Positions 1-21,032 of a DNA stretch of 21,032 bases are shown one piece after another. Location of the stretch: positions 38,850 to 59,881 of the forward strand of contig KZ627151.1 of the NCBI GenBank assembly GCA_002917775.1. The letters run 5' to 3'. The translations under genes were made by a program, and so were the position numbers. Numbering within the stretch: position 1 is the first letter of the stretch; every line of letters starts with the position of its first letter. The notes beneath the pieces are model-generated. The model was given only the letters and a program-made list of their open reading frames with translations, searched no databases and was not told the DNA's origin. This stretch comes from Glaciozyma antarctica PI12 (lineage: Eukaryota > Basidiomycota > Microbotryomycetes > Kriegeriales > Camptobasidiaceae).

Positions 1-301
1 CCCCTCGTCGCGCCCATCTTCCCCTCCTGGCTCGCGTACGCTGCCGTCGCATCTCCGCTGGCCGAATACGCGCTCATCCGCTACGTCTCTGGCGTTCCTA
101 TCCTGGAGGTGCGTATTTTCGCTGGTACGAGACTGGGAGGGGGCTGATGAAATTGCGAGCAGGCGGCGGGCGACAAGAAGTATGGCTCGGACCCGAAGTG
201 GGCCGAGTACAAGAGGTGAGCTGCTCTCCTACGCGCTGCCGTATCGAAGCTGACGATCTGCGTTTAGGACTACGCCTGTGTTCTTCCCCAAGTTGTGGTG
301 A
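1..301 (+). CDS. DUF1295 / steroid 5-alpha-reductase-like membrane protein, 3' end (left copy, partial)
   Basis: The 5' part lies beyond the window edge. Three exons are visible: 1-108, 163-215 and 268-301, split by introns of 54 and 52 bp with GTGCGT and GTGAGC donors, CTGAT/CTGAC branch sites and AG acceptors. The spliced end reads as a hydrophobic stretch rich in Ala, Leu and Tyr, then VSGVPILE, DKKYGSDPKWAEYKR and TTPVFFPKLW before TGA at 299-301. The pattern 'SGxPxLE...KKYGxxPxxxEYKRxTPVFxP' is the C-terminal signature of DUF1295 proteins, which share the fold of steroid 5-alpha reductases and isoprenylcysteine methyltransferases. The family is multi-pass membrane proteins, mostly at the ER, and the substrate of this member is unknown. 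A second copy, about 98% identical over most of the shared part including the second intron, lies inverted at 20,584-20,952. Family assignment is strong; the reaction is not shown by this fragment. Confidence 0.82.
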
Positions 302-1106
302 TTGGCAATGCGAACAAGTTGGGCTCTCCTCCGTCGCGTTCTCCACCACTCGCTCCAGGCTTCCAACACGTAGCTCTCCTCTACCTTCCGCCAGCGCTTG
401 CTTTCCATTCCCGCCCCGTCCTGGCTTCTTCGCAGCCCTCCCCGATCTTCTCTCGCGCGATAGCGGTCAGGGACTCCGGGCTCAACTCGCAAGATCCTTA
501 CATGATGTCTACCGCACCCATCATCTACATTCATGGCAAGACACTCGAATACTAGGAGACTCGAGCAGAGTCGCCCACTTTCAAAACGAGACGGGGCTCA
601 GCACAGTCTCCGACAGCGAGTGTGAACCCGCTGCCAATCACTCCCTCTCTCGAAGGCGCTCGTTGGCTTTTAGCGATACCACATCACACGATATGCGTCA
701 GCGGGAGGGTGGGAAGGGCGTGAATGTCGGTGGAGGAAGACGTTGGCTGTCGGGATTCGGCCTCGCCATTGACCTCGGCTTTGCATCGCTCCGTTCCTGT
801 ATTTCACCTTGAACGCTTACGGCTCCGCTCAGACAAGTCTCAAACGCCTCTCAAACCTCCCTACAGTCGTCGCAGCATCCCAATCTCGACATTCCAAAAT
901 CGCTGAATTCCGCACCCCAATTCTCGGCAGGAGCCTCGCTCTTCGTGCGCTCGCGAATATAGCCTCGCCGACAGCAATACTGAGCTAGAGTCCCTTATCT
1001 CGGTCTTTCGACCCATTCACCGTGACGGAAAAACGAAAGAACTCAGGCTGTATTACTGAGGGAACAAAGGGCCAAGCGAAGGATGCGAGACAGGAGTGTA
1101 CGAACG
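302..1106. other. Intergenic region between two convergent genes
   Basis: This holds the presumed 3' UTRs of the DUF1295 gene (ending 301, +) and the F-box-like gene (ending 1107, -). Long open frames cross it on both strands, but none starts in a sensible context, shows spliced continuity or resembles a known protein. The first roughly 45 bp still resemble the flank of the right-hand DUF1295 copy (20,540-20,583 read on -), after which the two flanks diverge completely. I see no gene here. Confidence 0.5.
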
Positions 1107-2280
1107 CTATAGGAAGAGGCTATCTGGCTCCCAGTCTGGAGAGGCTTCTAGGAAGGTGAGAGAGTCAAAAATGAAAGGTAGTTGTGAAGCTAGTGGGTCG
1201 TTGTCCAGAGCGAACGGTGCGGAGGGGGAGAGTGAACGCTCAAAGTTCCAACCGCTGGCTGACGACAACGTTCCGTTGAAGGGACTCCTCTCCTCGGTGT
1301 AACGACGATAATCGTTGATAAAAGAGTCGAATCCGTCAACGATAGCCTCGCTCGTCGTCTTCCAAGCCAATACCTCGGTCTGCCAGGTATTCCTCGTCGC
1401 TTCGCCGACCTTGCCGAGGAGGAAGCGAATGAGGCGTCCTCCTCTTTGATGCAGTGCCTGCGAATTACGGTCAGCACTGTGAGGTGCAAGTGAATCAACG
1501 AGACAGACCGAATGATCTGCACACAGCTCCAGCTGCTCCGCCAGCGAGAGAACGCTCGAGCAGAGTCATTCCCAAGATGGTCGACGAGGGTAAGTCGCGA
1601 GGCATGCGGGAAAAGGCGAAGCAGCTCGACTGTCTTCTCCGAATTCGACACCGTAAGCTCGTCCACCCGCAGCCCGACGATAGCCGGCATGATCTCCTCC
1701 CTTTGCTCCCGCTCCCCAGTTATTTCATCGTAATAACATGTTGCGTAGTAGAGGAGCAAGTCGCAAGAGCTGGATGCGACGGAGACGCGACGCACCCCCG
1801 CTGGGAGTTGAGAGAGGATGTATTCGATGTCGCCGTCGAAGGAACGCGGATCGAAGTCGAGCTCGCGAATAAGGAAGCTGTAGCGAGGCAGAATGTGGTA
1901 GTGGAAGAAAGGATTGCGGGCCCTGGAGACTCTGAGGACCTGCGAACGGCGGTCAGCCCCGTTGGGTCGCGGCACAGTTTGCCGCGCAGAGCAAAACGTA
2001 CCTCGAACAAGCGCTCCGCCGCAAGCTCACTCATTTCCCGATTGAGCAGGAAGAGCATATTGGTCCGCGTTCCTAGCCAGCGGCACCTGTTCCCCGACCC
2101 GCCGCCCTCCGCCCGCGCGAACGCTCGACGGTCGGCGAGGTCGGCCGCTCGAGCGTGGTCGACGATGAGGGCCTTGAGCTCGGTCGGGAGGTGCGCGAAG
2201 GTGACACGAGGAGGTGGAGAAGGAGATGCGGAGGGGGAGGACGCCGAAGAGGAGGAGCTGTCGGGTGAGGCGGGGAGCAT
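1107..2280 (-). CDS. F-box-like protein, left inverted paralog
   Basis: Proposed exons on the minus strand are 2280-2002, 1939-1523 and 1457-1107, giving 348 aa. Intron 1 (1940-2001) has a GTACGT donor and a CTGAC branch site. Intron 2 (1458-1522) uses a weaker GTGCAG donor but a good CTGAC branch site and keeps frame. Exon 1 starts with a Ser/Pro-rich leader and an F-box-like helix, THLPTELKALIVDHARAAD in pattern (actual 'AHLPTELKALIVDHARAAD'), followed by a conserved NMLFLLNREMSELAAERLF segment. Exon 2 has LRR-like text (HILPRY, LIRELDFD, VRRVSVAS, DELTVSNSE). Such proteins usually bind Skp1 and select substrates for SCF ubiquitin ligases, but that role is inferred. Exon 1 is about 97% identical to the copy at 19,105. 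Exon 3 is not obviously related to the paralogs, so the 3' end is the least certain part and decay there is possible. An upstream, out-of-frame ATG at 2291-2289 lies in an 11-bp near-duplication. Confidence 0.6.
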
Positions 2281-2740
2281 GCTGGGAGCATGCTAGGAGG
2301 AGCGAGGTGAGGCGTCAGTGGTGGGGCTTGTTCGTGCGAGGTCGAGCTGCAAAGGGAAGCCTTGTTAGCGCCTGCTCCAGGCCCTGTGCGGTGGCCCAGT
2401 ATCCTCAGCGGAAGACAGCTCAGGCTCCGGCCGCTGAGCAAGGAGCGCCTCTCCGCTGGTCCAAACCGCCGCGCGTTCCTCCAGCAGGGACTCACCAGTC
2501 AAGCAGCACTATCTACGCAGCGTGCCGGTGGCGGAGCTGGCGCGGGAGGGGAAGAAGGGAGAGAGGCGCGGCACCCTTCGCTTCAAGTACAAGTCCCCGT
2601 CAAGCCTCCCCACGGCTCTTCCTCCTCCACCTTCCTCCCCAGCCCAACACCCCATCGGCAGCACCTTTCCAACTCTACCGCAACTCTCGTCTACCCCCAC
2701 GCAAACCCCAACTAGGCCGTCGCATCCCCTCCTCCCCGGA
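2281..2740. promoter_or_regulatory. Shared divergent promoter region, F-box-like gene / UBX gene
   Basis: The 460 bp between the two start codons must hold both leaders and promoters. The left two thirds are taken by the F-box leader and its UTR intron. The side next to the UBX start (about 2,580-2,740) is a C/T-rich tract without a clear TATA box, a common promoter style in GC-rich basidiomycetes. No specific operator can be named. Confidence 0.4.
2347..2495 (-). other. 5' UTR intron of the left F-box-like gene
   Basis: Read on the minus strand, this 149-bp segment begins GTGAGT, contains a GCTAAC branch site and ends TTTGCAG 66 bp before the start codon at 2280. Closely related introns sit at the same place upstream of the paralogs at 16,966 (16,747-16,903) and 19,105 (18,891-19,038), and the exon just before the donor is also similar. 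Conservation across three loci supports real splicing. Confidence 0.65.
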
Positions 2741-4672
2741 ATGGACGTGCTCGACTCTCTCTCGATCGCACAACGCGAGACTCTCGCCAGCTTCCAGGCC
2801 ATCACGAATACGGATGATCTGGACACGAGCGTCACAGTGCTTAACTCGGCGGACTGGAATCTCGAGGTGAGTTCAGCTGCACCGTCACCGGGGTGCGGGG
2901 ATGGCGTAGGAGGGAGTCCCAGCGCGTCCTGACGAGGACAGCTCGCCGTACTCCTCTACGACAGTGCTCCCTGCCAGAACGCGCTCTGCGAACTTCAGCT
3001 GACCTCCTCTGTCCCCAGTCCGCCATCGCCAAGATCTACGACCGAGAGCCAGGATCCCATCCCACTCCCTCCTCCTCGACTCCCCTCATGGAGGATTTTC
3101 GGCATCGACGACTCTGCCGTGATGCCTCCAAGCGGTGCTGGCCGCCCCGTTGCTCCTGGGAGCTTAGCGTATTGGCTACGACAGGTGCGCGCCTCTCGCG
3201 ATGGGAGAGGGGACGGAGCTGATGCAGGGATCCAGTTCTTCGCAGTCCCTATTAACGTCCTCAGCTGGCCCGCTGGGGTGCTCTACGGCGCCGCAGGCTA
3301 CGTCCTCGGCTTCCTCGGTCCGTCCTACCCCCACCTCCCCCTTCTCCACTAACGTCCCCTTCAGCACGTCTCCTCCGTATCCGCCCCGGAACCCCTTCCC
3401 TCCGTCCTCGAAACCCATTCGCTCGAGACCCCGCACGAGCACACTTGGACCCGGGGGCGGCGGCGGAGAGGTGGGTGAGGGCTTTGGAGGAGAGTACGGG
3501 GGCGGTTAGGTGGGGAAGGAGGGGGGAGAGGAGGGGGAGTGGGCTGAGAGAGAGGGGAGAGAGGAGGAGTGTGCCGGATTTCTGGATTGGGGGATACGAG
3601 AGTGCGTTGAGGAGGGCGAAGGAGGAGGTCAAGGTGTTGATGGTGGTTCTGACGTGCGATGAGCATGAGGATGATGCTGAGTTCAAGAGGTGCGTTTGGT
3701 GCTTTACTCGAAAGGGCGGAATGCCGTGAGGAGGAAATGGGAGCTGACAAGATTCGCAGGAATGTGTTGACGGATCCGGAGTTGCTCAGAACGCTCGCTG
3801 CCGAGGGGATTCTCTGCTGGGGCGGAGACGTGCGGGATCGAGATGCCTACCAAGGTGCGTACATCCTTATTCTACGACCAGACGAAGCTGACGACATGCA
3901 CGCAGTTGGCAAGACTCTCACCTACTTCACCCTCCCCTTCATCGCCTTCATCGCCCTCCAACCCCCCTCAACCGCTTCCACCTCCACCGCCTCCCCCCGC
4001 ATGACCATCATCTCCCGCCTCGAAGGCTCCCCCTCCTCCACCACCTCCGCGCCCGCCCTCATCACCCAACTAACGACCCTCGTCCTCCCGCGCGTCACTC
4101 CCTTCCTCGCGCGTCTCCGCGCTATCGCAGCGACTCGGAACGCCGAACGCTTGCTACGGGAAGAGCAGGATAGGGCTTACAACGTCGCTGCTGCGAGGGA
4201 TACGGAACGAGTTCTTGCGCGACGAGCGGAGGAGGATCGGAAGCGGCGTGAGGGCGCAGCGAGTATCGAGCGGGAGGCGAGGATTGGCAAGCTGAGGGAG
4301 CAGGGACGGGAATGGCGGAATTGGATGCGCGCGGAGCTGGGAGAGGAACCGGTGGAGGGAGCGAGGATTGGGGTGAGATTAGGAGATGGGAGGAGGGCGG
4401 TGAGGAAGTTTGGAGAGGAGGAGAAGGTGGAGAGGGTGTATGCGTTTGTGGAGTGTGCGTTGGAGGAGGGGAAGGAGGGGGAGAAGGTGGGAGGGAGGAA
4501 GCCAGCGGGGTATGAGCACGTCTTTGACTTCAGGCTCGCGACGACGTTTCCGAGGGTCGTGTTGGAGATTGATGGAGGGATGGGGGCGAGGACGGTAGGA
4601 AGTTGGGGGGAGACGCTGGTGCCGAGTGGGAACTTGGTGGTCGAGGGGTTGGAGAAGAGGAGGGAGAGCTAG
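2741..4672 (+). CDS. UBX2: UBX-domain protein of the UBXD8/FAF2 (Ubx2/Ucp10) type; one apparent frame break
   Basis: Six exons: 2741-2866, 3019-3184, 3236-3317, 3365-3689, 3760-3854 and 3906-4672, about 519 aa. In order it has an N-terminal UBA-like helix bundle ending 'SADWNLE|SAIAKIYD', a hydrophobic ER hairpin (FFAVPINVLSW... to ...YVLGFLG), a UAS thioredoxin-like domain (DFWIGGYESALRRAKEE, LTCDEHEDDAEF), a charged Arg/Glu-rich coiled coil, and a C-terminal UBX domain with the p97-binding FPR loop (TTFPRVVLEI). This is the architecture of proteins that sit in the ER or lipid-droplet membrane and recruit Cdc48/p97 for ER-associated degradation. One base too many lies near the TTTT run at 3096-3099: the frame before it reads KIYDREPG... 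and the frame after it MPPSGAGRPVAPGSLAYW. Whether this is a sequencing error or a mutation cannot be told here. The start was chosen as the first ATG leading into the UBA-like domain. The acceptor at 3235 rather than 3227 keeps the frame. Confidence 0.88.
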
Positions 4673-5274
4673 AAAGAGGATGGGAGCGACGACGACGACG
4701 ACGGTGGCGACGAGTAATCGACCTGAGTTATACCTGTGGTCGCCTTCAGTTCCAGCACTGCTTCGGCCTCACTGCTTGGCTGCTCTCGCTGGACTGCCCG
4801 CTCAGGTCGACAAAAACTGCTCGTCGAGATGCGCGTGTTGACGACGTACGCGAGGCTCAAGTAGGTCGATTCGGCTCCTTCTTTCGCTTAGACGTGTCGA
4901 TTGCTCACCCGAGTCTAACTACACGCCTGGAATCAACAGAGGAGGCGCTGGAGGACAAGCATCTGCTTCGCCGTTGAGACCGGGAGGAGGGAGGGTCGGT
5001 GCGTGAGTTGACTTTCCGCCCGACTTCTTCTTCTTCTTCTTCCTCCTCCCTCTCCCTCGTCCCTCTCCCCCTCCCTCTCCCCCGCCGCCGTCTAAACGGG
5101 ACTCACCAGAACAAGCAGAGTAACGGCGGACCACCCAGCGAGACTCCCTCTACTCGAGAACTCGACTTCGTTCCTCCCCGCTTGGTCCCCTTCACAACTA
5201 GCAAACCAGACCCCAAACGACCACCAAGCACTCGTATCACCACTCCACCCCCACTCTCGTTCTCAACGCCACCG
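4673..5274. promoter_or_regulatory. Intergenic region and probable promoter/leader of the RING-RRM gene
   Basis: After the UBX stop there is a short GAC-repeat patch (about 4,688-4,702), then ordinary mixed sequence. From 5025 a (TTC)6 run starts a polypyrimidine tract that continues to about 5,090, on the coding strand upstream of the next gene. Such CT tracts are frequent near fungal transcription starts. The frame of the next gene stays open upstream of its ATG to about 4,999 but has no earlier ATG. No separate gene is seen. Confidence 0.45.
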
Positions 5275-8200
5275 ATGACGAGCCAGCCTCGTCGACCCTC
5301 CTCGCGCACGCACAGCCCACTCACTCCTTCCACCTCACTCTCCCATCTCGATCTCCTCCTCGCCGGTGCACCGCTCAAGCAGGACGGGATCGGTTTCAGC
5401 GACGGGGAGGATTCGCCCTCTAGGCCGAGCAAGACGGGGACGAGGAGCGAGAGGGATAGTCCTCCCCTCCCGAGTGAGTCAGACCTCAAGAGGAGCGCTC
5501 ACGGTGAGTCCTTTCGTTCTCCGCTCGGGTGCTTTTGGAGAACGGTCTAGCTGACTACTCCCTGCGCAGCCTACTCGCCCAAGCACTCGTCCTCTCTCGC
5601 CCTCGCCTTCACCCCTGTCGGTCCCACTCAAGTCGAGTCCACCTCTACGGGCCCCACGCCAGCTCAACAGCGCTCGTTCGACTCCAAGATGCAGGTAAGG
5701 TTATTCCCGAGAGCGAGGCGGTCACAAGCTGACGATCCCGCAGGCCTCCAGCTCGAAAGCGCGCTCTTACGTCGCTCCTCACCGTCGACCTCCCGCCCTC
5801 ACCCTCTCCCCTTCCTACTCCTCCCTCGAGCTCTACGACAATTCCAGACTCCCTGAGCCTGAAGATGCGTTCTACTCGCCTCTCCCGCGCCTCGACGCCC
5901 CGCCGCACCTCCGCAAGTCCAAATCGTCGTCGGAGGAACCTCCGTACTCTCCTCCCGCGGTCAGGATCTCGAGGGGCCCGTACGACGAGCCCAAGAAGTA
6001 CTCTCACCCTACTGCGATCAAGGAGGAAGAGGAGGAGGAACTCGTGCTGGGGAGGAGGACGCTCGATGCCTCGGTCGTCGAGCAGGACGAGACGAGCAGC
6101 GGGGAGGTTTGCAGCTCGGACGGCGACGATGGCACGGTCGATAACGTTTGCTCTTCCTGCGGATGCGCTCCTGTCGCCAGCTTCGTTGCTCTGGTGCGTC
6201 CCGCTTCTCGAAACCCTCTTCGCACGAACTAACGAGCTCATCGCAGATCCCCTGCGACCGTAAGCTCTCCCCGTCCTCCCTTCTCACCTCGCTAACTCCC
6301 TTCGCAGACCTCCTCTGCCACACCTGCCTCAACGCTCTCATCAACTCAGCCGCCCACAAGCCTCCTCGCGAAATGACATGCTTCATGTGCTCCACGCTCA
6401 TCGACTCCTTCGGTCCCGCCTGGGAGAACACCGGTTCCCTCGGTCTCGTCGACGCCCTCGTCGCCAGCCTTGCGAACAAGGACAGCGTTCGTCAGGATCC
6501 CCCGAAGAAAGGGAAGGAGAACGTGCTTCCCTTGAGCCTCCTCTCCCCCATCGGCATCCTCACGCAGGCCAACTCGTCCGCCTCACATACGCGCAGGTCG
6601 TCGTTGTCGACGACTACCTCGTTCGCGGACCTCCTGTCGCCACGCGCGACGTCGACGCCGCTCAAGGCTAGAGTGGCGGGGAGCAGCGAGTCGAGGTGGT
6701 CGGTTGAGGCGCAGGGGACGGGAGAGATGAGCTTTGAGATGAGCCCTTTTAGGCATTTGGATTGGAGTGTCGAGGGACCGTTGACGCCGGAGGATCGGAG
6801 GAAGGCGGGTTGGAAGGCGATTGGGTGCGTAGTCTCGTTCGTTCTTTTTCCTCGTCCCACATGCCTTGCGGCTTTCGATCTCGGGGAGTGTAGCTAATCT
6901 ACTTTTCCGAGCAGGACGGACGTCAAGCTCACCGAGGAGTCGGATTCGTCGCAGGACATGGTCATCGAGAGGCCGACCGAGTGGCCCGTCGTTCGTCTCG
7001 ACAACGTGCGTTCTCTTCTTCTCGCTTTGGAGCAAGGGTGAAAGCTGACGAGCTAATGAAGATTCCGTGGGACGTCACTGCTGCTGAACTCGAGGAGTGG
7101 CTGCCGGAGGGATCGCTTGCGCCGGCGGACGAGTGCGTGCTCGCGGTTCACATCCTTTGCAACCGGTACGTCTTTCTGCTATCCTCCACCCTGCCGTCAC
7201 CGTCATCGTCACCTGGACTGGGGATAGGAACTAACGCCTTCGTAGCTCCGACGGCCGCACTCTCTCCCAGGCCTACGTCGAGGCCTCCTCGCTCGAAGCT
7301 GCTCGCACGATCGTTCGTTCGCGCGACGGCCGCAAGATCGGTGGACGACCAGTGCACGTCACGCTCTCGAACCAGACGATCCTCATGACCACCGTTCGTC
7401 TTCCATCCCAGAATCCGGACCCTCGCTCACTCCGCACGCAGATCTTTCCGAGCTGGGAACCGGGATTCCAAGGCATCGATGCTCTTCCTTCCCCAGTTCC
7501 TGGCCCGCTCCTCATGCAGACTGAGCTCACGGGGCTCGTTTCGCTCTGCAAGCTCGAGGTTCGTCGGTTCCTTCTCGCGCTGGGGAGCAGGTCACTGATG
7601 CGGTCCCATCGCAGTCGAACCACGCTTCCAAAGTCAAGGAGCGACCTTACTACAACATCGTCACCATCCTTGAGAAGGTTCGTCGTTCCCTGCGATCTAA
7701 AAACTCGCGCTGACGAGTCGCGACAGTTCCCCTGGCACCAGTCGGAGACGTACAACAGCAAGCAGATCGTCAGGCTCTTCAATACTTCCTGCGGTTCGTC
7801 CCTCTCGTCCCTCTCCGTCGACGTCGCTGATCGTGGTTGCGGATCGCAGCGGCTGTCGAGATCCTTGGAGCGGTTCGCGAGCTCGTACCGGATTGGGTCG
7901 AGATCCTCACGACGATGGTTGATGCCGTCGCTGCCTGCCCGAGTGAGTTCCGTTCTCGGAGACGGTGGTGGTCGAAAGCTGACGTCGACGGCAGTCTTCC
8001 TCCCGAAGCAGAAGAACAAGTTCGTCAAGATGAGTGGGCTCCAGCATACCCGCTTCCCCGTGCGTCGCTCCGACTGCCCCACCGTCTCAAAGCAAGCTAA
8101 CGCACACGCGCAGTCCGGCGAATCTCCCAAGCGCAACCTCCTCGACAGCGGCTTCTCCTTCTCCCCTCCCTCCCTCCGCGACAAGTACGTCTCGGTCGGC

Positions 8201-8527
8201 GTCGAAGGACCTCGTCATCACGACGAAAGTCCCTCCAAGATCCTTGACCTCGCTCCCCACACGCACCACACCTCCCAAACGAGTCCAGTCCGCCGTAACC
8301 CCGCTACGGGACAGCAGTACGAGCTCAACCCGAACGCCGCGAAGGCGACGAACCTCCTCTTCCAGTCCTCTCTCGCGGCGCTCTCGACCCCGTTGCCGGC
8401 CCCGAGGAGCCCGCAGAAGACGAGGAGGCGACGTGCGGAGTCGATCTCGCGCCAGCTGGGCGTGGATGATGCGGTCGTTCGGGCTGTGGCGGCGCAGTTG
8501 GGCGTCGCGTTGGAGAGGAACGCTTAG
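5275..8527 (+). CDS. RING-finger and RRM domain protein
   Basis: Thirteen exons can be joined without breaking frame: 5275-5503, 5570-5694, 5744-6193, 6247-6259, 6308-6824, 6915-7005, 7062-7165, 7246-7558, 7615-7677, 7727-7793, 7850-7942, 7995-8059 and 8114-8527, giving 847 aa. After a Ser/Pro-rich, probably disordered N-terminus comes a complete RING finger at about residues 254-300: C-x2-C, then PCDHLLCHTC, then CFMC. The zinc-ligand Cys and His of its centre are encoded by a 13-nt microexon and its flank. An RRM follows at about 468-553 (VVRLDNIPWD as RNP2-like, GRTLSQAYVEA as RNP1-like). Then a conserved block follows (KERPYYNIVTILEKFPWH...QIVRLFNTSC) and a basic C-terminal tail. RING suggests E3 ubiquitin ligase activity and RRM suggests RNA binding; together they hint at an RNA-linked ligase, but the target is unknown. 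I do not recognise a named orthologue. Confidence 0.85.
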
Positions 8528-8642
8528 GCGTTCCTTCGTGCTTCTTTTCTTGGTTTCCGCATCGTACCCGTTCTGAGCATTCCCCTATCTTGAGTTATTC
8601 CACCTTCGCTACTATCCCCTTTTCTACGCACTCGTACTCAGC

Positions 8643-8649
8643 TATATAA
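8643..8649 (+). promoter_or_regulatory. TATA-box-like element
   Basis: TATATAA lies 52 bp upstream of the ATG at 8701 and 116 bp after the stop of the RING-RRM gene. It matches the TATAWAW consensus in a GC-rich sequence where such a match is rare by chance. If functional it would drive the plus-strand frame at 8701; otherwise it may simply be AT-rich 3' flank of the upstream gene. Confidence 0.3.
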
Positions 8650-8700
8650 CCCCACATCCCCCCCCCTCCGTCTGCTATTCCCATCGCATCTTATCTCGCA

Positions 8701-9423
8701 ATGTCATCGAGCGTTTTTGAACTTTCGAGTCTCGGTAGCGAGGTTTGCGGAGAGGGAATCGAGATCGCTGGCGACGCTTGCTTGGAGCCTGCGCTTCCGA
8801 GCTTGGAGGAGTGGCGGTCGCTCGCCAAGGCTGGAAGACAAGATGGCTTCGCGTTGGGCAGCTCGACAAAGGGGGTTGAGCGAGGAGCAAGCTGGTGTCG
8901 AGCAGCTGTCTCGCTGCGACGCAACCCCAGTCTTTCGCACAGCGCCCTCTCGCTATCGGATGAGCGTCTCGAACTCTCGCGAGGGGAACAAGAGCGAGAA
9001 AGACTGAGCTGTGAAGCGTGCACCCGAATCTCGTTGCAGATCCATCTCCCCTCTCTCGACGCTCTCGGGAGTGCGTACAGCAAGCAAAGTAGTTTCAGCT
9101 CCCCACGCCGACTCCTGTCGAGTGTCTCCAGCGGCGTATGCGCCGCGCGACGTGTGCGAGGAATCGGGGATTTGAGGCTGGAGTGGAGTGGGAGGTGGAG
9201 GGAGGGGAGGGGGAGGGGAGGGAGGACGACGAAAGAGGACGATGTGAGGTGGAGGAGAGGAGGCGAATGGAAGGCGAGGGGATGTGGGGAGATTGAGCAG
9301 GTAAAGGCGGAGGGAGGACGGGAGAGTGGTGAGAGGGAAGGAGAGAGCCGAGGTCGGAAGCTAGCGAGAAGCGATCTTGATCCTGGAACAAAGATAAAGG
9401 TCAGTCGCTTTCGGTCTGAGTAA
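8701..9423 (+). CDS. Candidate small gene, antisense to the 3' part of an F-box gene (doubtful)
   Basis: An open frame of 240 aa starts with MSSSVFELSSLGSEV at an ATG in a good context (CGCAATG), just downstream of a TATA-like element. The first roughly 50 residues look protein-like; the rest is Arg/Gly/Glu-rich, as expected of a shadow frame opposite proline-rich coding sequence. The distal part overlaps exon 5 (9095-9382) of the minus-strand F-box gene. No domain is recognised. It may be a real antisense transcript with a shorter coding part, or nothing; a long minus-strand frame crosses the same DNA and is equally unproven. Confidence 0.22.
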   Translation: MSSSVFELSSLGSEVCGEGIEIAGDACLEPALPSLEEWRSLAKAGRQDGFALGSSTKGVERGASWCRAAVSLRRNPSLSHSALSLSDERLELSRGEQERERLSCEACTRISLQIHLPSLDALGSAYSKQSSFSSPRRLLSSVSSGVCAARRVRGIGDLRLEWSGRWREGRGRGGRTTKEDDVRWRRGGEWKARGCGEIEQVKAEGGRESGEREGESRGRKLARSDLDPGTKIKVSRFRSE

Positions 9424-10458
9424 GCGACTGACTTACTCGAGGTAGATGTTCCTCTGCGCACAAAGCTTCTGGAAGCTTCTGGACATTCGGGGCCTCGACG
9501 CGTGGTGATGGTCGGCCGTTGAAAGCTCACGCGGAGCGAGGTGAGATGTTCTAGCGAGACGAGGGCGGTTCTCAGAGCAGTAAAGACGCTTCGCGAAAGG
9601 CCATCAGTGTCATAGTAATAGCCGAATTCGAGTCTGAGAGTCGAGAGAGAGCTCGGGAGGTGGACGAGAATGGAAAGGATGGAAGTGTCCTGGATGTTGA
9701 CGAGGCTGAGGTGCTGGAGTCGAACCGCCGTAGCCAAGAGCGAGACGGTAGCGAGCGTCCACGTTGCGTCTATGATCATGACCTCAAGCTTCGTGAGCTG
9801 ATCCGCGATCGGCTTGAACTGCTCGAGACAGTAGCCACTACTGCCCGCGATTTCGACTCGCTTAACCGAGAGATGCCCGAGGCTCCCGCGTGACGCCGCC
9901 ACGAGAAGATCAATAACCTTGGCCGACATACGCGCTGGAGAGGGGATGTCGAGAATGAGTGATTCGAGGTGGAAGATCACTTCTTGTGGTAGTGGCTCAG
10001 CGATCGTCTGCACGACGAGATGTAGCTCCTTGAAGCCTGTTTAGCAGCATTCATCAGATCACGATCCTCCGCTGCTGCATCAGGACTCACATGAGAGTGC
10101 GGGGTAGAGAAGAGCAGCACCAGGAAGAGGGCGATCGAGGTGGAGAACGAGCTTCTCGACCTACGCACGCCTTTATGACTCGAGCGGCAAGCTTCCCCCC
10201 AATGTAGAGGTGGAGCGTCCGAGTCGGATGCCTGCCCCGCATTGGACTGGCACAGAACTTCTCCACCCATTCCGCGTCCTGATCGAACGCTACGCTCCAG
10301 AGAAGGCGTTGTCCCTCCCACTGCCAGCTCTTCGCCACCAGCGAGAAGGCGCAGGCGCAAGCTTGCCGTTTCGTCCAGCTGTAGACGTCGTAGGATTCGT
10401 AGGCGGTCTCTAGGATTTGGTGGAGGAGCTCGGGAGGTAGGGAGTGGATGGTCGCCAT
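9095..10458 (-). CDS. F-box protein with LRR-like repeats; one apparent frame break
   Basis: Minus-strand exons: 10458-about 10162, 10160-10091, 10036-9531, 9478-9437 and 9382-9095, about 400 aa. The N-terminus MATIHSLPPELLHQILETAY is a textbook F-box, followed by a conserved SLVAKSWQWEGQRLLWS motif and HPTRTLHLYIGG. The next exons carry repeated L-x-x-L patterns typical of LRR-like substrate-binding regions (VEKLVLHLDRPLPGA, FKELHLVV, LESLILDI, LQHLSLVN). The coding frame before about 10,161 (ending KACV) and after it (starting VEKLVLHL) differ by one base with no room for an intron, so there is either a sequence error or a mutation. Exons 3-5 are joined by introns of 54, 52 and 54 bp in phase. 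The last exon is Ser/Pro-rich and its frame is less secure. Its F-box is of a different subfamily from the four other F-box-like loci here. Role inferred: SCF adaptor. Confidence 0.72.
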
Positions 10459-10952
10459 GCCGGCGAGAGGAGGGAGGAGGGCGGGAGAAGGGGAGGACGA
10501 CGATGACTGGGCGAGCCTGGCCAGAGCAGAAGAGCGAGATTAGCTCAACCGTGTGCAGCAGTCAAGCAGGCACGCTCACCTTACTCCCGCGTGGAGGATC
10601 CGCAAGCTCGAGAGCTACAAGGAGAACCGCGCACGAACGGCTGGACCGTTGCTCCTCATTCAAGCTGGGTTACGCAGGGCTTTGAAGGGCGCTGCTGGGT
10701 AGTTGGTCTGTGGAGTCGTGCAGAAAACTTGCTGAAGAAGGTTGAAGGGAGGAAACAAAGACCTCGCTCCCTCCTTGGCGACAGCTGCTTCAACTCGACG
10801 AGCACGCTGCAGGCTCTCCCTACTCCCACTCACCTCCAGCTCAACTCAGACGGCGCCACCAGCACACCAAGCTACTTCCACTCTCCCTCAGCTAATCCCA
10901 CTCGAACGGCCGACCGCGCGCCCCTCCTCCTCCCCGCCACTCCTCTCACGCC
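10459..10952. promoter_or_regulatory. Divergent promoter region, F-box gene / ARL1
   Basis: The interval separates the minus-strand F-box start (10458) from the ARL1 start (10953). On the minus strand a likely 5' UTR intron runs from 10579 (GTGAGC) to 10517 (GGCCAG), with a GCTAAT branch site, 59 bp before the F-box ATG. The ARL1 side (about 10,800-10,950) is C-rich with repeated CTCC and CACTC motifs and no TATA box. Confidence 0.45.
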
Positions 10953-11760
<808 letters not shown>

Positions 11761-12279
11761 GCCAGGTGCCTCTCGCTCGCTTCTCCTTCTCGACTTCCTT
11801 CATTCCTCGCCTTCACCCGTCCTCGCCGCCTCATCTCCCCGCGTCCTCCTCTCCATCTCACGACAACTACCCCAGCGCAGCGTTTTCCTCTCCCCCATCC
11901 TATACCCCCCATTTCCATCTACATTTTGTTTGGTGGCCATGGCGTCGTTTCTGGTGTTGGGAAGGAGGAGGATGACTAGGGGAACCGAGGAGGAGGGGAG
12001 AGTGCAAGAAGTATACTGTACAATGGCGTCTCGCTGGTCAGCCGAGAGGGACTGCATAGCCACACAGATCTCTTCGTCGTCGTATCCGCCTTTGCTGGTC
12101 GTCGTCGTCGTCGTCTCCAAGTCGACGAGCGCGAATTTGAGGACTTGCGATTTCGAACTTCCCTCAGGCTGACGCGTCCACTCTTGCCCACCTACCACCG
12201 CCTTCCGCACACCCTCCACGCCCTCCTACACCACCCCTACTCCACCTTCCTCTATACCGCCAGAAGGCCGCACAACGCG
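11761..12279. other. Intergenic region, ARL1 3' flank and RPT3 promoter
   Basis: The ARL1 3' side is C/T-rich. A (GTC)6 run lies at 12,098-12,115. Upstream of the RPT3 start (about 12,180-12,279) the plus strand is CCTCC/CACC-rich, as in the other promoter-proximal stretches of the window. Open frames on both strands here are short and unconvincing. No gene is seen. Confidence 0.45.
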
Positions 12280-14494
<2,215 letters not shown>

Positions 14495-15094
14495 GAGTTG
14501 GAGAGGGAGAGAGGGAGAGGGAGAGAGGGAGAGAGGGAGAGAGGGTGGAATCGAGAGTTTTTGTTCCTGTCGTCGCGTTGCGTGGTGCTGAGTCGGGAGT
14601 CGCCAACGAACGGGTGAGGCGCATGGAGCTCGTCGTGCTTTCGTTCTCGTTGCGCTGTGTTTGTTCTGAGCAGCTGCAGTGCAAAGCTCTGGAGCGGATC
14701 GAGTCGCAAGTCGGTGCGGGCCAGCGCTGAGCCTGGCAGTGGCGGCGAAGTCTTCGCGTCTTCGCAGCTCTGACTCGCCCCGACTTCGCCTCGACTTCTC
14801 CCTCGCCGACTCCCCCCACCGGTCCTCCCCCGGAATCCTGGTGTGCGTGCTTTGTGAACGACAGGGGGGTTAGTGTGCGGGCTAGAGACGATGGAAGAAC
14901 GAAGACGGGGGTACGCGCTGGAGGGACCACGCGCCTCGATGCAGCTCTGCTGGCCGAGTTCAAGGGGCAGGGAGGGACAAGGGAGCTGTCCAGAGAGCAG
15001 GAAGCTGACGTGCTCCTTGTCAGGTACCCGGCGCCCGTCTGCCCACGGCCGTCCCTCCACCTCTTCCTCCTCCTCTCCTCTCCCGTCCGCACTC
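14495..15094. repeat. Intergenic region with a GAGAGG-type purine microsatellite (14,501-14,544)
   Basis: Directly after the RPT3 stop comes a run of GAGAGGGAGAGA-like repeats about 44 bp long, presumably in the 3' UTR. The rest up to 15,094 shows no gene I can support. A CTGAC branch-like site and GTCAG acceptor at about 15,006-15,023 could end a 5' UTR intron of the following F-box-like gene, but no clear donor is evident. Confidence 0.5.
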
Positions 15095-17048
15095 ATGCCA
15101 CTTTCCGCCTCTCCGCCTCTCCGCCTCTCCGCCTCTTCCACCCTTTCCCTCGCCTGCCTCTCGAGCTCAAGGCCTGTATCGTCGGCTTCGCGCACGAGAA
15201 CGACGTCGCGCATGAGGAGACCGAGGAGCCGGCGACACTGGGTCCAGCAACTTCAGACGACGACGAGGTCGCAGATCTTTTGATGGGAACCTGGATGTCG
15301 GGTGTTGAAGCGTTGTTTACGACGAACAAGGAGATCAGCTCGCTAGCGGCGGCCTACCTCTTCAAGGTGCGACGCGAGGAGCTGCGTTGGAGAGGCCTAG
15401 CTGACCGCTCACCCACCCGCAGACGATCGCCCTCTCGCGTTGTAGCCTGCCAATCTTCAAGTACCGGATCCTTCCTCGTTACGCCGTCCACTTCCGCGAG
15501 GTCGACTTCGGCTACTGTTTCGACGAGCAGGAGCTCACCTACTTCGCTGCGACCATCTTGGCCCACCCCGACGTATCTCTCGGATACTTTCGCCTCTCCT
15601 CCTATTCAGCAGCCGGAATCGTCAAGCAGATGTACCCCACGCCTTGCGCCGCCGGCGCCGAAGACGATACGGACGAATACTTTGCGCCAGTATTTCGTCG
15701 AGCATGCGCGACGATCGAGGAGGCCGAGCTGGAAACTTCGGAGGATGCAGTGAAAGTGCTGCAGCTGCTCCCGAACTTGCGGTCTCTCAGCATAGGGGGG
15801 AGCGAGACGAGCTTCGTGCCGACGATGGTCGACTACGTCGTTCATCTGAGCGACTTTCGCCATCTCGCCATCAACTTCAAGTACCACGACCTGGTCACGA
15901 TCTGCAGCGGAGTTGGGCCCTTCAGGACCGTCAAGTCGATCGCCGTCACCGCCAGCAGCCTGTCGGCGAAGGAATGGACGACGCTCGCCGCCCTGCGAGG
16001 CTTCTCCCAAGCACTGCAGAGCTTGACTCTTTCCTTCCGCCATTTCTCCGACTATCCAGCCAAACTCTCTGCTGCGGCGACAGCTCCCTTCCCCTTTACC
16101 GCTCTCCGTACCCTCACCCTCCACTGCAATACCAAAGCCATCCTCACCATCCTCACCGCCCTTCGCGACTCTCCCCTCGAACGCTTCGACCTTCACTTCG
16201 TCGAAGCCCCTTCCTTTCGCGAAGAGGATCCCTTCCTTTTCGCCCTCTCCCAACATCACGACACTCTCCGCCACCTCCAGTACGCGCAGTACGATCCCAT
16301 CCCCGCCTACAAAGTCGCCGTCCTTCGCCGCGCCTGCTCCTCCTTCCTTATCACCCTCTCCACTCGCGGCCTCTTCATCATTCCCGGCGACTTGGAGCCC
16401 CCCAACCAGGTGCGCGCGACGCAGGATCAAGTCGAATGGGTCCAGGAACGCCTTCGCGAAGCTGAGCGACGCGGGAGGATGTTGGAGAGGCGTCTCCAGG
16501 CTTTGCGCCGTTCCGCTTTGGAACAAGCTGCGGAGGAGTCGGAAGTCGCGGAGGAGAATCACCCGAAGATCGAAGAGCGCGACGACGGAGTGGCGCAGAA
16601 GACGAGACACTGGGACGGGCGGAGCAGAGCCCCACAGAGCCCACAAGGAGCTCTCGAGCTGTCGCGAGCGCCGCGCAGCGCTCCTTCCTCCCTCTCCCTC
16701 AACACCTCCGCTGCTACCACGCTACGTAGACAGTGTTGCTTAACTGGTGAGTACCTGCCTAACGAACGCGCGGCACTTTGGCCCAGCGGAGGAGAGGCGC
16801 GCCTTGCTGTGCCGCCGGAGCCTCCTCCGCTGTTCGTCGGCTGGCGACACGGCCACCACGCCCAAGGAAGGCAACAGGCGCTAACTATCCTCCTTGTTTA
16901 CAGCCCGCAAGATCCCATCAGCAAACTCCACCACTCGTCCCTCCCATCCGCTCGCACCTCCCGACATGCTCTTCTCCTTGCCCGACACCTCCCCCTCCCA
17001 ATCTCCTTCTCCACCTCCTCGAATCTCCTTTGCGCACCTTCCGACTGA
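15095..17048 (+). CDS. F-box-like protein, tandem copy 1; start and end uncertain
   Basis: The secure part is exon 1 up to 15366 and exon 2 from 15423, joined across a 56-bp intron with a CTGAC branch site. It reads FPRLPLELKACIVGFAHEND (F-box-like), NKEISSLAAAYLFK, then RILPRY and a series of LRR-like segments (LRSLSIGG, FRHLAINFK, LQSLTLSF, LRTLTLHC, LRHLQYAQY). An Arg/Glu coiled coil (REAERRGRMLERRLQALRR) follows. Two points are open. The only nearby ATG (15095) is not in frame with the F-box; four copies of CCGCCTCT (15105-15136) lie between, and a change in copy number would alter the frame. Downstream the frame has no stop before 17,046-17,048, inside the next paralog. If the conserved intron 16,747-16,903 is removed, the frame runs directly into that paralog's start. 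The likely role is SCF adaptor, by inference. Confidence is high for the family, low for the ends. Confidence 0.6.
15105..15136 (+). repeat. Four tandem copies of CCGCCTCT
   Basis: An exact 8-bp unit is repeated four times between the candidate start codon at 15095 and the F-box of this copy. Eight is not a multiple of three, so gain or loss of a unit changes the reading frame of anything translated through it. Confidence 0.9.
16747..16903 (+). other. Conserved leader intron upstream of tandem copy 2
   Basis: A 157-bp intron candidate begins GTGAGT and has GCTAAC about 20 bp before its TTTACAG end. It is related in sequence and position to 2347-2495 (-) and 18,891-19,038 (+). Here the exon before it lies inside the open frame of tandem copy 1, and the exon after it (A-R-K-I-P-S...) continues in frame to the ATG at 16966. 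Confidence 0.6.
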
Positions 17049-18546
17049 GATCAAGGCGCTCATCGTCGACCACGCTCGAGCCGCCGACCTCGCCGATCGT
17101 AAAGCGTTCAAGGAGGCCGCTGCCAGCAGGGACTATTGGGAAAGGCAAGGGGCAAAGGCCCGTTGGCCAGGAGCGCGGGTCGATGCGCTCTTCATGCTTG
17201 GTCGGGAGATGAGCGCGCTCGCGGCAGAGCTGTTGTTTAAGGTACGTTGTGCTCCGAGCGGCAAGCTGGGCTGCAAGGAGCTGACCCCTCGCAGATCGTC
17301 AAGGTCTCCAGGACCAGACGAACCACCTTCCGACGCAGCATTCTGCCCCGCTACGGCAATCTTATTCGCGAGCTCGACTTTGACGAGCAGAGCTGCCGCA
17401 TCGACGTCGCTTTCATCCTCTCCCACCTGCCCTCCGGGGTTCGCCGCCTCTCCGTCTCGTCCATCCCCTCCGACTGGCTCACGTATTACGGATAAGGACA
17501 CTTCAGCAGTCCAGGCTGCGGGTGCGGGCGATGCGAGGACATCACGGCTTCCCTTTCCGAGCTTAGCAGTCGCGTCGAGGAGCTCACGGTGCGGAGTTCG
17601 GAGGATGCGGTCGAGATGCTGCTTCTCTTCCCGCATGCCTCGAGGGTCACTATCTTCAGTGATTGCTGTGCAGAAGATATGTGCTCGTCTTTACTTCGAG
17701 CGATTGAATTGGCGTTCGTCCAGCCCGAGTTGCTGCACCTCACCCTCGACCTTGACGGTTTCTTCCCCCGCCTTTCGACCAACTTCGGAACTTCGGCAAA
17801 TCTCGTCTCTCTCATCATTACCGCCGACGCCCTGTTTCCACATGATTGGAACGCCTTGGGTGCGATTTCGAAGACGCTGTAGTGTTTGACCCTCTGCTGC
17901 GAATCTTGCCCCTTACCCATCCCCGCCCTATCCTTCCCTCGACTCGAAACTCTCTCACTCTCCCTCGAACCCTTCTACGCCAGCTACATTCTTGAGTTTT
18001 CGCCGCCTTCCACACTTCCCCCATTCGCACCCTCTCCCTCAGATTCCCCACCACGCCCTCCTTCGACATCATCGAAGCAGATTCGCTCGCGAAGCAGCTT
18101 TCCAGCGACGACTCTCTCCACCGCGCCCTTCTCCACCACTCAACGACTCTCCAATCTCTCCATTACTCTCAGGACGACACGATCCTCTCCTTCGACTTTC
18201 TCCAACTTCAAAGCTTCAAACCCTTTGCGAACACCTCGGCATCGCACTATCCGTCGACGGTCTCATTCACGGCATCGACGACCCCCTGAACGACGCTCAC
18301 AACTTTGGCGGAACCTGCGCCGACTGGAGGAGTCTGCTTCCGTGGGGCGAAGGGGATTTCAGCGGGTCGGAGGCGTCGGCTGAGGAATTTGACGACGAGG
18401 AGGGCTGGTCTGACGCCCCTGCGACGAGCTCATGCGGATGCGAGGAATGCACGGGGACGACGAGCGAGGAGGGCGGGGAGGTGGAGGAGATCGGCGTGCT
18501 GAGGGGAGAAGGCGGGTGGAGGCAGCTGGCGGATCGGAGCTATTGA
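16966..18546 (+). pseudogene. F-box-like pseudogene, tandem copy 2
   Basis: Exon 1 (16966-17241, 92 codons) is intact: a Ser/Pro leader, AHLPTEIKALIVDHARAAD and MLGREMSALAAELLFK. A 53-bp intron (17,242-17,294) with CTGAC leads into exon 2 with HILPRY-like RSILPRYGNLIRELDFD and VRRLSVSS. After that the frame is broken at least four times: TAA at 17,493; TAG at 17,880, where tandem copy 1 has a Gln codon in the matching LQSLTL motif; and changes of frame near 17,990 and 18,215. On both sides of each break the text still matches the family (VEELTVRSSEDAVEML, LHLTLDLDGF, TLQSLHYSQDD), ending in an acidic tail with a CGCEEC motif before TGA at 18,544. A tiny intron around the first stop would be only about 28 bp and is unlikely. 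A 156-residue protein from the first frame is possible but would lack the repeats. Confidence 0.72.
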
Positions 18547-19104
18547 AGCGAGGGGGATTGGACGAAGGAGCGAGGGGCCTTAATTGTACCGCGGTGACGG
18601 AATGGGAGTTGTTGAGTTGGAGGAGTGCAAGGGATCGTGAAGGCGGTGCGAAGGGTTCCTCGCTCAGACCAACGCAGTCGAGCTTCCCTAGGCTTGAGTG
18701 ATTCCCTCGGAGAGATTGCGCCTGCCGCCTCGCCCTTACCCAAGAGGAACGAGAGCGACCTCGAGCTGAGCCAGGCTGAGCCCGCCGAAGTCAAAGCGCC
18801 GACCGCCCCGACCGAGCTCTCTTTCCTCCGTGCTGCGTACGCTCCAGGCTACCTCCAGTGCTACTCCCGGTGCTATTAGCTGATTACTCGGTGAGTATCT
18901 GCTGTCCAACGCACGCCCCACCGATTCGGCTGAGGAGCAGAGGCGCACCTTGCTGGAGCCTAAGCTATCGGCAGCTGGGGATGCAGGGCCACCACGCACA
19001 GGGACTGGAGCAGGCCCTAACGAGGCTTCCCTTTGCAGCTCGACCTCGCACACGAACAAGCCCCACCACTGACGCCTCACCCCCTCCTGCTCGCACCTCC
19101 CAGC
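18547..19104 (+). promoter_or_regulatory. Promoter and spliced leader of tandem copy 3
   Basis: A leader intron runs from 18,891 (GTGAGT) to 19,038 (TTTGCAG), 148 bp, with a CCTAAC branch site, ending 66 bp before the ATG at 19105. The intron and following leader are very similar to those of the left inverted gene. The sequence before the donor (about 18,790-18,890) resembles the corresponding stretch before tandem copy 2. An open frame at 18,625-18,879 lacks an ATG, is probably leader or a decayed end of an older copy, and is not called as a gene. Confidence 0.55.
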
Positions 19105-19858
19105 ATGCTCCCCTCCTCACCCGACAGCTCCTCCTCTTCGGCGTCCTCCCCCTCCGCATCTCCTTCTCCACCTCCTCGTGTCACCTTCGCGCACCTCCCG
19201 ACCGATCTCAAGGCCCTCATCGTCGACCACGCTCGAGCGGCCGACCTCGCCGACCGTCGAGCGTTCGCGCGGGCGGAGGGCGGCGGGTCGGGGAACAGGT
19301 GCCGCTGGCTAGGAACGCGGACCAATATGCTCTTCCTGCTCAATTGGGAAATGAGTGAGCTTGCGGCGGAGCGCTTGTTCGAGGTACGTCGTGCTCTGCG
19401 CGGGGAAGCTGGGCCACCGTTCGCAGGCTGACCACTGCTCGCAGGTCCTCAGGGTCTCCAGCACGCTCAAGCCTTTCTTCCGCTCCCACATTCTCCCTCG
19501 CTCCTCCCCCCTCCGCACCCTCACTCTCTCCATTTCGTTACCCACCTTCCCCGACTTCCAAGACCACCTATTCCACGAGATGACGCAGCATCGCAACACT
19601 CTTCAAGCTCTCCACTACTCCCAGGAACGCCCGATCACCCCCGTCGACTTTCGCGGACTCCAAACCATCTGCATCTCCCTCGACATCAGCCTCTCCACGT
19701 ACAGCCACGAAATTTTCCCTGTCAATTCGGACTCGGAGGGTGAGCATGACGACGCAGGCTCTCCCGCCTGCACGGAGGGAAGCGAGGATGGGCGCGAGGA
19801 CGGGCGCGAGGACGAGGCGCGAGAGGAGGGGGACGAAGACTTCGCCGCAGAGGACTGA
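19105..19858 (+). CDS. Short F-box-like protein, tandem copy 3 (lacks the LRR-like middle)
   Basis: Two exons, 19105-19383 (93 codons) and 19445-19858, encode 230 aa without interruption. Exon 1 differs from the left inverted gene at only about three residues (Ser4, Asp34, Trp81) and has the same length. Exon 2 starts with VLRVSSTLKPFFRSHILPRS but then jumps to LRTLTLSISLPTFPDF and TLQALHYSQERPITP, which match the C-terminal part of tandem copy 2. About 200 residues of LRR-like sequence are missing compared with longer copies, without loss of frame. The tail is acidic, with a small GRED repeat (DGREDGRED). It would keep the F-box, presumed to bind Skp1, while losing most of the presumed substrate-binding region. 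It could be a functional short form or a deletion product still open by chance. Confidence 0.72.
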
Positions 19859-20583
19859 ATCTCGTCGACAAATTGCGAAGGTCGAATAGCGGGGATTCGA
19901 GATCTTCTGGTGGGAGGGCGGCTGGGGGCGGGAGCTGGTTGGGGTCGGCGAGCGGTGTGTGGGATTTGTGGCGCAGGGCGAGCGGGGAGAGGGGTGATAG
20001 CGGGAATAAAGCACAATCCGCTGATAATTTTCCAGGGGGATGGGAGAGACGAGAACCGAGTTGGCCTTGAGCGAAAAGTGAGATGCGAAACTTGAGTCTC
20101 GGTAGCGAGGCGAACCTTGGAGCGGGCTCACGCTCGTGGCGAGACCGAGGAACGAGCAGCACAACCTCATCAGCGAGCTCCACGCTCTCGCGCCATGCCG
20201 CTCCCTTGCCGACGATCAGCAGGGCGGCTTCGGCGGGCAAGAAGCGGGAGATTTGCGCGTGGGCGGTCGTTGGCGGCGGGTTGGCGGTCTGGGCGATCCT
20301 TTGAGGGGGAAATGGGTCGGTATGTGTGTGAGCTGTGCAGGCTTGAAGGCTTTCGAAATGGATGAGATGGGTTGGTCGAAATGGCGAGCGACGAGGTTGG
20401 AGTTGGACGTCGAGCGCTGGAATCCGAGAGGCTTTCGCCGTTCGAGGAGGGAGCAAAGCTTTGGCGACCAGAAGAAGGGAGACAACATCGTGGACTGTAG
20501 TTAATCGAGAACGAGAGCGAGAGCGCAAGCAGAGTGGCGGGCTCCACGACGCGAGGAGAGCACGACGTCGTTCGCATTGCCGA
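19859..20583. other. Intergenic region between convergent F-box-like and DUF1295 genes
   Basis: This is the mirror counterpart of 302-1106 and should hold two 3' UTRs. Apart from the 45 bp next to the DUF1295 stop it shows no evident similarity to its left counterpart. Long frames cross it on the minus strand without gene-like features. At 20,094-20,110 a 17-bp string matches 8727-8743 exactly. I see no gene. Confidence 0.5.
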
Positions 20584-20952
20584 TCACCACAACGTTGGGG
20601 GAAGAAACACAGGCGTAGTCCTAGACGCAGATCGTCAGCTTCGATACGGCAGCGCGTAGGAGAGCAGCTCACCTCTTGTACTCGGCCCACTTCGGGTCCG
20701 AGCCATACTTCTTGTCGCCCGCCGCCTGCTCGCAATTTCATCAGCCCCCTCCCAGTCTCGTAACAAGGAAAAAAAGGAACCCCAAGAAAAGGAACGCCAG
20801 AGACGTAGCGGATGAGCGCGTATTCGGCCAGCAGAGATGCGACGGCAGCGTACGCGAGCCAGGAGGGGAAGATGGGCGCGACGAGGGGCGAGGAGAGAGC
20901 GACGGTCGAGGCGAGGAACTGAGCGGACCAGAGGCCGACTTCTCCGACGTAG
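20584..20952 (-). CDS. DUF1295 / steroid 5-alpha-reductase-like membrane protein, 3' end (right copy, partial)
   Basis: Minus-strand exons 20952-20781, 20725-20673 and 20620-20584 are visible; the 5' part lies beyond the contig end. Starting with a split codon then YVGEVGLWSAQFLAS, this matches the family motif (HPN)Y-[FV]-GE of DUF1295. It continues through the same hydrophobic stretch, VSGVP, DKKYGSDPKWAEYKR and TTPVFLPPTLW before the stop. The middle exon (53 nt) and second intron (52 bp) have the same lengths as in the left copy. Two differences stand out: the tail has an extra codon (PPT for PK), and the first donor region (about 20,757-20,790) is odd, reading GTTCCT with a T run where the left copy has GTGCGT. 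Since the sequence ends in ambiguous bases about 220 bp further on, base-call errors are likely. Confidence 0.75.
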
Positions 20953-20998
20953 CTGTGAGGATAAGGGTGAGTAGGAGTTTATTCAAGGGAGCGGAAGG

Positions 20999-21032
20999 NN
21001 NNACTTGGGGTGNNAAAANTNNNNCAAAAGNC
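20999..21032. other. Ambiguous bases at the contig end
   Basis: Undetermined bases occur at 20,999-21,002, 21,013-21,014, 21,019, 21,021-21,024 and 21,031. This marks the end of reliable sequence and lowers trust in differences seen in the last few hundred bases. Confidence 0.98.

Follow-up and report, generated by a model that had tools for sequence, protein, structure and literature searches.

Near-identical inverted tracts around a housekeeping core in Glaciozyma antarctica: probable ectopic gene conversion between two F-box-like genes

Genes and mirrored tracts of the window

The stretch of DNA analysed here (21,032 nucleotides from Glaciozyma antarctica PI12, assembly GCA_002917775.1; hereafter the window) carries two F-box-like genes, A and E, on either side of a core of housekeeping genes, and our subject is a tract of about 400 bp which these two genes share almost unchanged. 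From left to right the window contains a DUF1295 gene 3′ end (plus strand), gene A (minus), the core, the F-box-like genes C, D and E (plus) and a second DUF1295 3′ end (minus). The mirrored order of the DUF1295 ends and of genes A and E around the core, with these strands, was put forward in the original prediction, and both our gene models and a comparison of the window with itself bear it out. The features on which the argument turns are as follows.

1 to 315, plus strand: left DUF1295 3′ end (PF06966, 33.0 bits over 49 residues); the window starts inside the gene
1107 to 2280, minus strand: F-box-like gene A (codon-based gene model; exon 1 at 2280-2002, exon 2 from 1939; weak beyond about 1586)
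1997 to 2395, minus strand: left copy of the shared tract, comprising the leader (end of a probable intron of the 5′ untranslated region) and exon 1 of gene A (changepoint search)
16966 to 18250, plus strand: F-box-like paralogue D (tblastn), with in-frame stops TAA at 17493 and TAG at 17880
18988 to 19388, plus strand: right copy of the shared tract, leader and exon 1 of gene E (changepoint search, alignment)
19105 to 19858, plus strand: F-box-like gene E, 231 amino acids, two exons (gene model, tblastn)
20572 to 20888, minus strand: right DUF1295 3′ end (PF06966, 25.3 bits over 59 residues)

The self-comparison gave two inverted matches between the window ends: 1882-2452 with 19502-18939, at 89.8% identity, and 1-336 with 20888-20547, at 93.3% over 342 columns. 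Genes A and E each also match, more weakly (69%), a third place at about 16.7-17.6 kb. Near-identity between the ends is restricted to two inverted tracts, the leader and exon 1 of genes A and E (about 400 bp) and the DUF1295 3′ ends (about 315 bp). Between these, the best match of 330-1880 with 19503-20570 scored 24.7 bits, which is not above shuffled sequence (60 shuffles; median 22.0, maximum 30.1). The window is thus not the large imperfect inverted repeat that it had been taken for. Its GC content is 60.7%, compared with 67.76% for the Sanger assembly of Rhodotorula graminis WP1 (PMC4585186); neither Rfam (at the gathering threshold) nor ARAGORN (bacterial code) found a match in it, and among the papers listed by our literature search none evidently concerns this locus.

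The tract shared by genes A and E

A changepoint search without preset bounds was run on gene A 1862-2520 against gene E 18860-19520 (645 ungapped columns). It separated 10 differences in 397 columns, inside the tract, from 78 in 248 outside it; the gain of 55.9 was reached in none of 200 shuffles, whose maximum was 9.8. In the alignment of A, E and D, the longest run of variable ungapped sites at which A equals E is 37, a length attained in 0 of 20,000 shuffles (maximum 25), and this run remains 37 under each of four aligner settings (0 of 2000 shuffles). By the same test the longest run is 11 for A and D (0 of 5000 shuffles) and 3 for E and D (1081 of 5000).

Exon 1 has 93 codons in each gene; 276 of its 279 bases and 90 of its 93 residues are identical, in agreement with the protein identity of about 97% given earlier. 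All three differing sites change the amino acid, so that no change is found in 74.3 synonymous sites, and the synonymous divergence (dS) of this exon from gene D is 0.363 for A and 0.367 for E. Over the 39-40 codons that open exon 2, dS is 0.461 for A and E, 0.434 for A and D, and 0.722 for E and D. Constraint on the protein was considered as the cause of the exon 1 identity and rejected, because the non-coding leader, which is alike at 101 of 108 positions, falls inside the tract; the dS to gene D of 0.36 likewise speaks against it.

The affinity of gene A changes across the tract. Sites grouping A with E number 91 inside the tract, against 4 grouping A with D; upstream the counts are 24 and 45, and downstream 23 and 24. 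Across four aligner settings the tract counts stay at 91 and 4, and the flanks give 23-24 against 45-48 upstream and 22-27 against 18-24 downstream. Just upstream of the tract, at 2391-2520, A is the nearer to D (103 of 128 positions identical; 81 of 122 for A and E).

Within gene A, at 2273-2294 on the minus strand, lie two tandem copies of AGCATGCTCCC. The duplication places an additional ATG, out of frame, 11 bases before the start that A and E have in common, and this extra ATG may lower the translation of gene A.

The F-box-like family and the core

Genes A and E do not stand alone as a mirrored pair; D and C, both on E's side and strand, are relatives. The proteins of A, C and E recover one another and also D within the window by tblastn, D itself not being used as a protein query. 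C and E match A no further than 1586; the tail of A beyond 1550 was left out of the protein queries. The remaining features are listed here.

2716 to 14447, no single strand: housekeeping core, with a UBA/UBX protein, a RING/RRM-like protein (weak), gene B, an Arf-family GTPase and a proteasomal ATPase (gene models, Pfam)
9531 to 10458, minus strand: gene B, within the core, F-box-like by eye only (gene model)
15145 to 16376, plus strand: F-box-like paralogue C, with a C-terminal part possibly resembling leucine-rich repeats (LRR) (gene model, tblastn; low-confidence structure model and fold search)

Gene E has no counterpart of the middle part present in C and D, and since its C-terminal part resembles theirs, the middle of E seems to have been deleted. 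Gene D is probably a pseudogene, unless introns remove both of its in-frame stops; these stops suggest a decaying gene within the cluster. The reading frame of C stays open until beyond the point where D starts (15405-17048). The protein of gene B, searched by tblastn, matches only itself in the window at an expect value of 1 or better.

The F-box label itself fares poorly. No member of the family reaches the Pfam cut-off for an F-box; the sole F-box match is that of A to F-box-like_2 (expect value 0.21; 12 bits, where the cut-off is 21.6), accompanied by an equally weak match to DUF3558, and the pieces of B, C and D give no match in Pfam even at expect values up to 10. Counts of F-box domains in Microbotryum and relatives are given in PMC4469406. 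When left unspliced, the frame across exon 1 of C (14731-15753) matches Pfam 2EXR with an expect value of 0.002, below the cut-off, and a shorter, spliced piece of C does not reproduce this match; 2EXR is a possible alternative name for the family. The structure predicted for exon 1 has two long helices (mean predicted local distance difference test score, pLDDT, 69.4), with two PDB matches at expect values up to 10 and none at 0.001. In the model of the C tail, strand and helix alternate, and 55 PDB matches at expect values up to 0.001 were obtained; COI1, TIR1, FBXL2 and SKP2 are among the matches listed, as are NLRPs and ribonuclease inhibitor. The model hints at an LRR-like tail, and we take it only as a hint because its mean pLDDT is 57.3. 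In viral_contigs, 161 pattern matches were found for relatives of exon 1, of which tblastn confirmed none.

For the core, the original prediction named UBX, RING-RRM, ARL1 and RPT3 genes. The UBA_4, UBX, proteasomal ATPase and Arf-family domains exceed their Pfam cut-offs; the RRM match stays below its own (expect value 0.0091) and no RING was found among the core pieces searched with Pfam. RPT3 and ARL1 are the labels of that prediction, and the Pfam support here reaches the level of a proteasomal ATPase and an Arf-family GTPase.

Origin of the tracts and comparison with known systems

We propose, with a probability of roughly 0.6, that the tract shared by these two inverted genes stems from a recent ectopic gene conversion, probably from E into A. 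A and E would be fairly old inverted paralogues at the ends of a local F-box-like cluster, each facing a DUF1295 3′ end. A break in one arm could recently have been repaired against a template in the inverted arm, at a distance of about 17 kb, and about 400 bp (leader and exon 1) would thereby have been copied between the two genes, probably from E to A, with the flanks bearing no evident exchange. The suggested direction comes from the identity of A with D, which falls from 103 of 128 positions just upstream to 66 of 104 in the leader of the tract (Fisher p 0.0047), that is, to the level of E and D, while the latter stays constant (78 of 122 upstream and 71 of 108 in the leader; p 0.78). This suggests that E was probably the donor and A the recipient. 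By analogy with the first tract, conversion probably also made the DUF1295 3′ ends alike.

Several points weigh against this proposal. Further upstream, at 2521-2600, the affinity of A hardly differs (42 of 77 positions identical with E, 46 of 80 with D), and the downstream flank favours neither E nor D clearly. At its start, exon 2 favours E (57 of 75 positions for A and E, 53 of 78 for A and D), with dS values there that are alike (0.461 and 0.434); beside these stands intron 1, in which A is nearer to D (44 of 53) than to E (44 of 60). The bounds that delimit the site counts and the test of direction were derived from the same data, the shuffles ignore differences in rate between sites, and gene D, with its in-frame stops, may evolve unevenly. 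The DUF1295 tract is without a third copy, so that conversion there is argued by analogy. Finally, a consensus built from mixed reads would look just like the tract of A and E.

This last point leads to the alternative of an assembly artefact: reads from one copy may have been assigned to both, or a DUF1295 end may have been attached to the right arm through a chimeric read, so that perhaps a single DUF1295 locus exists. We consider this unlikely, though it is the main rival to conversion. The right DUF1295 copy contains an apparent block of base-calling errors of about 31 bases at about 20763-20790. Opposite left positions 99-125, all 11 differences of the right copy (10 substitutions and one inserted base) equal a neighbouring base of the right copy, where a fraction of about 0.44 is expected for random changes as judged by the left copy's neighbours, a slightly different measure. 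The 12 Ns of the window all lie at 20999-21032, and because of the smeared block and these Ns, the right end of the window appears to be poor sequence, its last few hundred bases being unfit for fine comparison. On the left, the sequence opens within the repeat, and the window probably represents an entire contig broken off in the repeat at either end. The doubt about the assembly voiced in the original prediction is to that extent well placed.

Against an artefact, substitutions occupy 10 columns and gaps 6 columns in the alignment of the two copies of the A and E tract, one of the differences being an 11-bp tandem copy present in A only; the copies therefore do not represent one read set. 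The DUF1295 ends bear on this question too. Both pass the PF06966 cut-off of 20.4 bits, for the C-terminal part only; the left copy has exons at 1-108, 163-215 and 268-301 with two GT-AG introns, and the right copy has three inserted bases before the stop. With block bounds set by eye, 275 of 282 positions are identical outside the bad block, and the block itself has 21 identical positions of 31; gap columns number 6. The original prediction gave about 98% over some 250 of 300 bp, and the overall value in the self-comparison is 93.3%. Five of the substitutions outside the block (left 56, 264, 284, 291 and 303) do not equal a neighbouring base and are unlike smearing; two further substitutions and the three inserted bases, up to left 303, do equal a neighbour. 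Past the stop, from left 316 on, there are seven more substitutions that do not equal a neighbour, and the similarity, judged by eye, fades there rather than ending sharply, which argues for true paralogues.

The original prediction also offered a real inverted segmental duplication of more than one gene, which we considered as a single event involving an F-box-like gene together with DUF1295, with later decay in between. The mirrored order and orientation of the two gene ends would fit such an event, as would the lean of the exon 2 start towards A and E. Homology along the arms is, however, not continuous, with nothing above shuffles between the tracts; divergence is not uniform, jumping from 10/397 to 78/248; and just upstream, D rather than E is the nearer relative of A. 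We therefore regard one duplication of more than one gene as very improbable. Scarcely any weight is given to the idea that the core was once inverted and left the mirrored ends as duplications of its breakpoints, in the manner reported for Drosophila inversions (PMC7584159): such duplications should be continuous, but each arm here has two patches with unrelated sequence between them. Allelic copies joined at both ends were set aside, as the gene structures differ beyond exon 1.

If gene conversion between A and E is real, this locus would offer a small, clear case in which part of one gene has been overwritten from an inverted relative about 17 kb away; the F-box-like exon would be the unit copied, and the remainder of the gene would be free to diverge. 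A draft contig may have mirrored ends without any segmental duplication, and poor base calls at a contig end can supply part of an apparent divergence. It is conceivable, as a long shot, that repeated conversion between the inverted arms renews the leader near the promoter and the F-box-like exon and nothing else, such that an adaptor module would be kept while substrate-binding tails diverge or are lost, and that the inverted tracts let the core flip in the population.

Inverted gene copies that flank other genes, and that could allow inversions, are also a feature of the Cryptococcus MAT locus, for which PMC12510652 deals with inverted pheromone-gene copies and with inversions. The copies there are mating-type genes; the likeness lies in the inverted arrangement of copies around other genes. 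As in Y-chromosome palindromes with arm-to-arm conversion (PMC3403216), nearly identical sequence recurs in inverted orientation on a single chromosome, but here the common stretches measure about 0.4 and 0.3 kb instead of spanning entire arms, and are separated by about 17 and 20 kb. For ectopic conversion between duplicated genes, the review PMC3924832 names two signs: identity over lengths that exceed chance, and parts of a gene whose relationships conflict. Unlike the cases described there, we have three alignable copies from one sequence, with one flank undecided; like them, genes A and E have an identity tract longer than any in our shuffles and, on the upstream side, sub-regions whose relationships conflict, and the process in question is of an ordinary, known kind.

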